NCBI GenBank assembly: GCA_903828675.1
Contig: CAIKND010000042.1
Location: forward strand, 1 to 64,000
Length of the DNA: 64,000 nt
Origin: an uncultured Acidobacteriaceae bacterium
Lineage (GTDB): Bacteria > Acidobacteriota > Terriglobia > Terriglobales > Acidobacteriaceae
Reading direction: 5' to 3'
Shown: positions 13,796-27,673 of the stretch, in pieces
How positions within the stretch are numbered: position 1 is the stretch's first letter
How the letters are laid out: the number at the start of each line of letters is the position of its first letter
Made by a program: the position numbers and the translations under genes
The notes under the pieces: generated by a model
Told to the model about the DNA's origin: nothing
Seen by the model: the letters and a program-made list of their open reading frames with translations, nothing else
Database searches by the model: none

Positions 13796-13848
13796 GGGAG
13801 GGGGGGTGGGTAGGGAGGGTAGGGAGGGAGGGGGGTGGGTGCCAGGGT
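13796..13848. repeat. G-rich tract 2, G-quadruplex-capable
   Basis: GGGAGGGGGGGTGGGTAGGGAGGGTAGGGAGGGAGGGGGGTGGGTGCCAGGG. Confidence 0.85.
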
Positions 13849-14162
13849 GGTCGTCCGTACCCGAGGTACCCCTTTTGGCGCTAGGGCGGTCATTTGAGTG
13901 GAGGAATCCCATATAAAGATTGTGCGCTTTTGAGGCGTAATTATCTGCAATTTTGATTGCGGCTAAGTTATTTCAATTCAGCAGCATGGAAATCAGACGC
14001 ATTTTTCCTTTCTGGGTGCAACGACATTCCATGAGTAACGGCAAAAGTTCGAGGCTGTTTGTGCGGAGAGGGAGCTCATGCTGTCCCACCCTTTTCTCCA
14101 GAATTCAAAGCGCAGGTTCTTCGACTCCGCTCCTCATGAACGGTCCGGATGAGTGGGCTCTG

Positions 14163-14202
14163 TCCCACCCGTTCCGCAAAGAACGCGGAATGGATGGGGC
14201 AC
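14163..14202 (+). repeat. P1 palindrome copy 3
   Basis: TCCCACCCGTTCCGC-aaagaac-GCGGAATGGATGGGGCAC; an isolated 5' arm precedes it near 14083. Confidence 0.85.
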
Positions 14203-14276
14203 GGAGCTTTTTTGCGGGGAATGGCGGCGGGGACGGAGACAATTCCGATTTGGCGGTTTCGTTTTCTGCGGCTCCG

Positions 14277-15911
14277 CTATAGGCCGAGTTTGTCCCAGAG
14301 GGCGTCGACTTTGTCCCTGGTGGCGCGGTCCATCTCGATCATGGCGGGCCATTGGCGCTCGAAGCCTTCTGCCTTCCATTTGCGGGTGGCGTCTATCCCC
14401 ATCTTGGAGCCGTAATTGGGCAGCCGCGAGGCGTGATCGAGCGAGTCGATGGGGCCGAGGGTGAACTGGATGTCGCGCTCGGGGTCAATGTTATTGGCCA
14501 CGCGCAGGACTACTTCCGCCACATCCTGCACATCGCAATCCTCATCGACGACGACGATGCACTTGGTAAACATGGTGCCGCCCAGCGACCAGATGGCGTT
14601 CATGACTTTACGTGCCTGGCCGGCGTAGCTCTTCCTGATGGACACCAGCATGAGGTTGTGAAAGACGGCCTCGACGGGAAGGTGCATGTCGACGAGTTCG
14701 GGAATCTGCATTTTCAACATGGGCAAGAAAATGCGCTCGACGGCCATGCCCATCCATGCGTCTTCCATGGGCGGCTTGCCGACGATGGTGGCGGCGTAGA
14801 TGGGGTCTTTGCGGTGGGTGATGCAGGTGAGATGGAAGACGGGGTAGTCGTCGGTGAGGGTATAGAAGCCGGTGTGGTCGCCGAAGGGGCCTTCTCCGCG
14901 CAGTTCGCCGAGCTCGACGTAACCCTCGAGGATGATTTCAGCGTAGGCCGGGACTTGAAGGTCGACGGTTTCGCACTGGACGATTTCAACGGGCTTGCCG
15001 CGCAGGAAGCCGGCGATGAGGAACTCTTCCACCTCAGGCGGGGCGGGGACGATGGCGGCAAAGGTGGTGGCGGGGTCAGTGCCGATGGCGACCGCAACTT
15101 CAAGGCGGGAGCCTTTGAGATTGCCCATGGCGACCTGGGGCAGGCCACCGACGGGGCCGTCTGGAATGGCGACCGAGCCGCCTGCCGACTCAGCCATGGC
15201 GGCGACGCGAGCGGTGAGCGGATCGGTGGAGGAAGCGGCAGCAGCGGCAGCGCGCAGGGCTTCGCGATAGTGCTCGGCGGCGACCTTTTGCCGTTGCCAG
15301 TGCATGCCGGTGGTCTGGCCGTCGTAGACCTGCATGCGATACATGCCGATGTTGCGCTTGCCGGTGCGGGGGTCGCGGGTGTGCACGCAGGGCAAGGTGA
15401 TGAATGGACCGCCGTCGTTGGGCCAGCACTTGAGGATGGGGAATGCGCTGAGGTCAAAATTCTCGCGGATTATGACTTCTTTGCAGGGGGCGTCTTTGGC
15501 GGGAACTGTCTTGGGAAAGGCGCTGGTGATGGCACCCAATTGCGGGAGCATCTTGAGCTTGTCGAGAAATCCCTCAGGAGCCTTCATGTTCATGAGGCCC
15601 TTGATGCGCTCGGCGATTTCGTCGAGGCGGTCAACGCCGAGGGCCATGGCCATGCGGCGCTCGCTGCCGAACTGGTTGATGAAGACCTTGTGTCCGGGAT
15701 GGCCCTTGATGTTCTCGAACAGGAGGGCAGGGCCGCCGGGAGCGTACTTCCCTGCCGTCTGGCCGGTGGCCTTGCCGCGCGCGCCGATTTTGGAGACCCG
15801 GTCAGTGATCTCGGTAATTTCCAACTCCGGCGAAACCTCTTCGCGGATGCGCTTCAGCTCGCCGTTTTTTTCGAGGGTCTTGATCCAGTCGCGCAAATCG
15901 TCGTAAGCCAA
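14277..15911 (-). CDS. UbiD family decarboxylase
   Basis: Similar to UbiD (FDLSAFPILKCWPNDGGPFITLP, GPFGDHTGFYT); likely TTG start at 15911 with AGGAG SD, giving LAYDDLRDWIKTLEKNGELKRI. Confidence 0.88.
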   Translation of the reverse strand: MAYDDLRDWIKTLEKNGELKRIREEVSPELEITEITDRVSKIGARGKATGQTAGKYAPGGPALLFENIKGHPGHKVFINQFGSERRMAMALGVDRLDEIAERIKGLMNMKAPEGFLDKLKMLPQLGAITSAFPKTVPAKDAPCKEVIIRENFDLSAFPILKCWPNDGGPFITLPCVHTRDPRTGKRNIGMYRMQVYDGQTTGMHWQRQKVAAEHYREALRAAAAAASSTDPLTARVAAMAESAGGSVAIPDGPVGGLPQVAMGNLKGSRLEVAVAIGTDPATTFAAIVPAPPEVEEFLIAGFLRGKPVEIVQCETVDLQVPAYAEIILEGYVELGELRGEGPFGDHTGFYTLTDDYPVFHLTCITHRKDPIYAATIVGKPPMEDAWMGMAVERIFLPMLKMQIPELVDMHLPVEAVFHNLMLVSIRKSYAGQARKVMNAIWSLGGTMFTKCIVVVDEDCDVQDVAEVVLRVANNIDPERDIQFTLGPIDSLDHASRLPNYGSKMGIDATRKWKAEGFERQWPAMIEMDRATRDKVDALWDKLGL

Positions 15912-16044
15912 GGGTGTGCTCCTGAAAATGCAGGTTCTTCCCCCTTCATAGTAAGGCTTGCGAGACAAGAACGGGCGTTGCCTGTCGAGGCAGGTGTATG
16001 GCAGAATTTTCTGCACGAAGCTCGTCTTGCGTAAAGGAGCCCAC

Positions 16045-27033: not shown

Positions 27034-27081
27034 GGGAGGGGGGGTGGGTAGGGAGGGTGGGGTAGGGAGGGGGGTGGTGGG
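27034..27081. repeat. G-rich tract 3, G-quadruplex-capable
   Basis: GGGAGGGGGGGTGGGTAGGGAGGGTGGGGTAGGGAGGGGGGTGGTGGG. Confidence 0.85.
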
Positions 27082-27294
27082 CAGATCCCTGACAGATTGG
27101 ACCTGGATTGGGGTCTGTGCTCTTCATCTTCCGCCTCCTATCAACATTGTGCGCCGGGAGAGGGTAATTTTCTGCACTTAAATTTGCGGTTAAGTTATTT
27201 GAATCAATCACCTTGAAAATTGACCACCTTTTTGTTTCCAGGTGCCACACCAGCGCATGGCGGCAGATGGTCTCGCGGGATGGGGTTCATGCTT

Positions 27295-27334
27295 TCCCAC
27301 CCATTCGCCAGAAAAAGGGCGAATGGATGGGTCA
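27295..27334 (+). repeat. P1 palindrome copy 5
   Basis: TCCCACCCATTCGCC-agaaaaa-GGGCGAATGGATGGGTCAC. Confidence 0.83.
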
Positions 27335-27673
27335 CGGAGCCGCTTTGGAACATAGGGCCCGGTTCATCGCCGGCCGTAACTCGCTATGCGAGTCGCGCTA
27401 CTCGGGATGACAGGGATACGGGACTTTTTTGCGGGTAGTGGCGTTGGGGAGTGACTTTAATCAGGTTGAAAGATGTGCGGTAAACACGGATTTGAGAGAA
27501 AGTTGCGGGGGTATATTTTCAGGCGGCGGGCGCAACCTTTTGAGCAGACGGTGTTTGCATAGGACATAACCGGCGGAACGGAGAGGCAGCAAGATCCAAA
27601 CCTCAAACCGTAAAGAAGCCGGGCTGGCCACTAGAGCGGGGATCACCCTGGGGCCGGCTGGGACGGAGGCGTT

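Follow-up and report, generated by a model that had tools for sequence, protein, structure and literature searches.

We found that two similar blocks in the analysed stretch of DNA (64 kb, hereafter the window) are members of a repeat family, with about 100 short copies scattered through the genome of a soil acidobacterium. The units at both sites are read on the minus strand of the window, here called the T-strand, and consist of an optional AT-rich module (M2), a 31-bp head (M1), a leader of ~80 nt and a C-tract; on the plus strand, the C-tract appears as the G4-capable tract. In related genomes, the same head and tract also flank a small gene. We propose, with a probability of roughly 0.6, that each composite is a gene-less derivative of such a unit (M1, gene, C-tract) that has multiplied like non-autonomous repeats.

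Structure, polarity and copy number of the unit

On the plus strand, both sites contain a G-rich tract, which a spacer separates from ATTGTGCGC...GTAATTWTCTGCA; an AT-rich stretch and the CCCACCC arm of a palindrome come next (Table 1), so that the preliminary description was right to report the same modules in the same order. The 21-mer TTGCGGYTAAGTTATTTSAAT is found at two places in the 64 kb, which are these two sites, where shuffled sequences lead to an expectation of zero. The functional orientation of the unit is that of the minus strand, which corrects the earlier plus-strand reading. In this orientation, M1 reads TGCA[G/T]ATAATTAC-N8-GGCGCACAAT. The nhmmer match at site A covers 13906-14026. 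The block that begins at 14078 at this site is only a truncated copy of the hairpin P1, which is found in full at 14161-14202.

Table 1. Positions of the repeat modules at sites A and B and of the P1 hairpins in the window.
Feature	Position	Strand	Description
Site A terminal tract	13796..13839	-	C-rich on minus, G4-capable on plus; G4Hunter 2.65
Site A leader, M1 to tract	13840..13918	-	subclass with TATATGGGATTCCTCCACTCAAAT; frame not conserved
Site A head M1	13919..13949	-	TGCAGATAATTACGCCTCAAAAGCGCACAAT; -10-like GATAAT; from exact pattern and information content
Site A M2 (optional, AT-rich)	13950..14044	-	directly upstream of the -10-like box; from an alignment of 56 M2 copies
Site A P1 hairpin	14161..14202	-	downstream of UbiD gene (14277-16016, minus); separate from the unit; stem covariation
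Site B terminal tract	27034..27081	-	C-rich on minus, G4-capable on plus; G4Hunter 2.73
Site B leader, M1 to tract	27082..27145	-	contains AGGAGG and ATGAAG
Site B head M1	27146..27176	-	TGCAGAAAATTACCCTCTCCCGGCGCACAAT
Site B M2 (optional, AT-rich)	27177..27264	-	from nhmmer and M2 alignment
Site B P1 hairpin	27293..27335	-	separate 3'-end palindrome
P1 hairpins in the window	5000, 14202, 17245, 28327, 33484, 35308, 36619, 50756	-	form GTGCCCCATCC-stem-GGGTGGGACA

Copies were counted by pattern searches in the genome (6.39 Mb, 241 contigs). With the pattern ATTGTGCGCN{6,12}AATNNTNTGCA, we detected 88 exact M1 heads, all of them 31 bp long, compared to none with the reversed pattern that served as a control. 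A C-tract follows downstream on the T-strand in 86 of these 88 heads, at a median distance of 78 nt. Searching instead for the tracts with a G-tract pattern of their own resulted in 61 tracts. An exact M1 accompanies 46 of them on the same strand and side; 45 of these pairs are separated by 78-139 bp and one by 269 bp. None of the 61 tracts in the genome was found with M1 in any other arrangement, and several of the other 15 either lie at the end of a contig or are paired with an imperfect M1. Both searches combined yield about 103 composite loci. The ordered modules therefore co-occur at dozens of sites beyond the window, and the earlier suggestion that conserved modules are held at near-fixed spacing, and are not random spacer, agrees with these counts. 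We observed composites or P1 repeats within a few hundred bases of the ends of contigs C37, C97, C163, C178, C182, C218, C228 and C239. The assembly probably breaks at these repeats, which would make the copy number a lower bound. An Rfam scan of the window returned one tRNA, and the repeat modules remained below the gathering threshold.

The unit has two defined borders. Its left border is sharp: in copies lacking M2, the information content is near zero before TTTGCA. On the other side, the sequence past the tract is almost never common to different copies, and we thus consider the tract to be the right border. An AT-rich motif similar to AAGTCATTGATAATAAA or ATTGATAATAAA follows the C-tract within 220 nt in 12 of 78 composites, compared to 1 of 78 further away, and at least one gene-bearing unit (L386) has a motif akin to AAGTCATTGATAATAAA after its tract as well. 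We rejected the ATTGATAATAAA-like motif as a part of the unit, as 12 of 78 copies are too few.

The AT-rich 60-mer that had been described as one conserved module is indeed conserved but comprises two modules, M1 and M2, of which M2 is optional. M2 is ~95 bp long, precedes M1 and has TTTCTGGGTGCAAC at its far end. It is present in 56 of the 88 heads and absent in 32, where M1 starts directly at TTTGCA; a locus contains zero, one or two copies, and there is one tandem locus. The -10-like box of M1 is TATAAT in 19 of the 32 copies without M2 and GATAAT in 36 of the 56 copies with M2. Both forms fit a -10 element, which is not a proof of one, and the -35 region of M1 is not canonical. We infer that M1 may be an active promoter. 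Two further ideas about the modules were discarded: M2 as a coding segment, since its best frame is open in only 21 of 49 copies, and M1 as a XerC/D-like site with a variable centre and fixed arms, since by eye the arms are not inverted.

The leaders between head and tract fall into subclasses, several of which have an ATG at a fixed place, and many copies contain a ribosome-binding site together with an ATG. Among the open copies, the frame relative to the tract is distributed 26:19:12, and we thus rejected a proline-rich leader peptide that is read through the tract. Ten copies have an early stop and five have no ATG. As the frame is not conserved, we treated the leader at site A as non-coding. 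No consensus fold was found in the leader or in M2; the control with shuffled columns gave zero as well, which leaves this comparison with little power.

The P1 hairpin and the genomic context

According to the preliminary description, P1 belonged to the composite; we find instead that it is an independent 3'-end palindrome outside the unit that extends from M1 to the tract. The window contains eight P1-like hairpins, all on the minus strand, compared to two composites. They are located 32-190 nt after the stop codons of minus-strand genes and always in the direction of the gene. Over the genome, 28 of 74 composites have P1 upstream of M1, and in none of them does it lie on the opposite side. 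The stem covaries, with several Watson-Crick types at positions 1, 3, 5 and 6, and the family is found across the genus. P1 may be a 3'-end element that is specific to this lineage and lacks a U-tract.

As a covarying palindrome after genes, P1 resembles the REP palindromes that are associated with RAYT/TIRYT (PMC3733652), and this genome, like Acidobacteria, contains IS200-like transposases. However, we noticed neither a GTAG nor a CGTC tag on P1, and at none of the five loci with Y1_Tnp genes does P1 match the flanking sequence (~1.5 kb). A spread of P1 by RAYT was rejected on account of this absence.

The units are mostly located downstream of genes of the same direction, and a P1 hairpin often precedes them. 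In 58 of 79 cases (58:21), the preceding gene is co-directional with the unit, whereas the gene after the unit is co-directional in 42 of 77 (42:35). As the downstream orientation is unbiased, the unit reads as independent and not as the leader of the next gene. The neighbouring genes are functionally unrelated and include GH38, UbiD, DUF3224, FtsH, GroEL-like and AcrB genes, among others. Three loci were compared with up to 80 relatives to look for empty sites and target duplications, and no syntenic neighbour pairs around the units were found.

A gene-bearing form with the same ends

A single gene-bearing copy was found in this genome (L184, also L361; C198:29398-29694, minus strand). Its M1 head is the same as in the gene-less copies; a ribosome-binding site and then a 118-codon ORF come next, and a C-tract is absent. 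Similar ORFs follow M1 in two relatives. We collected gene-bearing loci by a search for the protein family in which M1 was not used, and homologues of the ~115-codon gene were detected in 24 of 61 genomes, all within the genus. Of the 24 gene loci, 14 have an M1 with at most four mismatches at the expected distance, where the best match by chance has 8-12 mismatches. A C-tract begins at most 45 nt past the stop codon, often with no gap, in 16 of the 24 loci, compared to 2 of 272 control genes, for which we took long ORFs at loci of related genomes. At 10 of the 24 loci, M1 and the C-tract occur together.

The leaders provide a further connection between the two forms. Gene-less leaders of subclass d align nearly ungapped with the leader of the gene, its ribosome-binding site and its first codons; for instance, the gene-less copy L158 is 71% identical to the gene over 94 nt. 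Clear homology to the leader of the gene is found for subclass d only, and leaders outside this subclass, among them the two in the window, may be of different origin. The window composites are most simply explained as this unit minus its gene.

The gene encodes an unannotated protein family of ~115 aa with the core ENIRDFIACVAHGILIGAI...LLYAAQVA, which has up to seven copies per genome in the genus (loci L360-L387). The AlphaFold2 model consists of four helices with a mean pLDDT of 85.5. We found no matches to the protein in Pfam, NCBIfam, PHROGs, PDB sequences, phages or plasmids, no significant fold match of the model in the PDB or among viral models, and no recognisable transposase features. 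A role in autoregulation by binding DNA or RNA is a guess. The number of gene copies does not follow that of the heads, as genome G022 has 67 heads and the gene was not found in this 65%-complete genome.

M1 itself is present in 20 of 36 genomes of the same genus, with up to 67 copies, and in none of 24 genomes outside it. Among the genomes compared, the exact long G-tract occurs in this genome only, and relatives that retain the unit have much shorter tracts. The M1 matches listed from public genomes are mainly from Acidobacteriaceae, many of them from peat and soil. At 54 such loci, a C-tract lies downstream of M1 in 17 and a G-tract in 14, and a tract lies upstream in two. Across related Acidobacteriaceae, the tail is thus C- or G-rich and may lie on either strand. 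At L268, L275, L283, L298, L304, L311, L316, L337 and other loci, a G-rich tail on the M1 strand at ~170-340 nt replaces the C-tract, and G-tailed units are conspicuous in Terracidiphilus MAG_BO34. In genome G034 (L236-L239), the C-tract is followed by TTAAATATTTTTCTTTTCCACAGAAAG and then by a second partial start of M1 (TTTGCAGAnnATT), which resembles direct-repeat flanking.

The ancestral unit would have consisted of an M1 head with a promoter-like -10 box and a fixed GGCGCACAAT 5' region, a leader with a ribosome-binding site, the orphan gene of ~115 codons, its stop codon and the C-tract. The copies in the window would have retained both ends and lost the gene, and such gene-less copies would have multiplied in this genome to ~100 interspersed repeats that are short and non-autonomous, with M2 as a putative lineage-specific AT-rich insert upstream of the -10 box. 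In our interpretation of the common ends, the gene would have been lost and not gained, and the gene-less copies would derive from the gene-bearing unit and have spread since. Rho uses C-rich, G-poor RNA after a stop codon. M1 would start a short RNA that ends in the C-tract, and the tract would then be the terminator of the unit, C-rich and G-poor as Rho binds; Rho-type termination is suggested here by base composition and position. The G4 on the opposite strand would be a by-product. A G-rich tract on the T-strand, as seen at the 14 loci of relatives, is not predicted by a purely RNA-level explanation through Rho.

Known systems and alternative explanations

The nearest known kinds of elements are MITEs and modular repeats such as BOX. 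Similar to MITEs and other non-autonomous deletion derivatives, the units are short, intergenic and of high copy number, and they have the same ends as a gene-bearing longer relative whose coding interior they lack. However, terminal inverted repeats are absent, as the two ends (TTTGCA...M1 and the C-tract) are unrelated, and the longer relative encodes a four-helix protein without a known fold instead of a recognised transposase. As these two defining features fail, we do not file the unit as a MITE, although it is MITE-like in architecture. The BOX elements of Streptococcus pneumoniae are likewise modular repeats of fixed polarity in which one module is optional and may occur in tandem, but they have inverted repeats and a predicted fold (PMC3049150), whereas our unit has no consensus fold that we could find and does have a gene-bearing form; no sequence relation between the two is known. 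Rho-dependent terminators (rut sites) also have a C-rich, G-poor tract, which is comparable to the tract directly after the stop codon of the gene. In contrast to rut sites, the tract of the unit is unusually regular, nearly C-only and conserved at the sequence level, and its role in termination is putative. No matching description of the unit was found in a limited literature search.

The units could instead form a family of small regulatory RNAs, in which ~100 similar promoters each produce a short RNA whose C-rich end pairs with G-rich Shine-Dalgarno sequences or titrates Rho, so that the ends are kept by RNA function and not by mobility. This is possible but rather unlikely. Head and tract are nearly invariant around a variable leader, the tract is C-rich and G-poor, and the gene context suggests independent units, all of which would be expected of such a family. 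However, a consensus fold is missing in leader and M2 (in the low-power comparison above), the tract also follows the stop codon of a coding gene, and it is G-rich on the M1 strand in several relatives. A second alternative is that the block acts at the DNA level, as a G-quadruplex that promotes recombination or stalls replication, similar to the proposal in the preliminary description. In its favour, the two tracts are the top G4Hunter windows of the 64 kb (the next one has 1.95), and many related units have a G- or C-rich tract on either strand. A comparable case is the pilE G4 of Neisseria with its sRNA, where a G4-capable tract is likewise located near a promoter (here predicted) for a short transcript and where, in the model put forward, the RNA hybridises to the C-rich strand (PMC3547852). 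In our units, however, M1 points such that, if it is a promoter, the transcript would be C-rich and the G-rich strand the template, which is opposite to pilE; furthermore, there are ~100 copies compared to one, and a system of silent gene copies was not seen. As gene-bearing units have the tract at their 3' end, after the stop codon, and the unit is kept in relatives with much shorter tracts, we consider a G4-driven element very unlikely.

If the unit were a cis-regulatory promoter with a leader that controls the following gene, perhaps by way of a proline-rich leader peptide, this would explain why the genes that follow the unit, GH38 at site A and DUF3224 at site B, are both co-directional with it, and why many copies have a ribosome-binding site and an ATG. 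Over all copies, however, the orientation of the downstream gene is close to even, the frame through the tract is not conserved and the neighbouring genes are functionally unrelated, which leaves this explanation scarcely probable. We thus favour gene-less derivatives of a gene-bearing unit. A more far-reaching version is that the gene-bearing form is a new kind of small mobile unit, with a promoter head, a single 115-aa four-helix protein unlike known folds and a C- or G-rich tail, that moves with the need for its ends only and yields ~100 gene-less copies in one genome; we consider this improbable.

With these results, an odd G4 block becomes a defined repeat family with a candidate gene-bearing ancestor. 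They also reveal an undescribed small protein family of soil Acidobacteriaceae that has its promoter region and tail in common with the repeats. Should the units be mobile, they would represent a system of short repeats that lacks a recognisable transposase; should they be transcribed, about 100 similar promoters would produce C-tailed transcripts across one genome.
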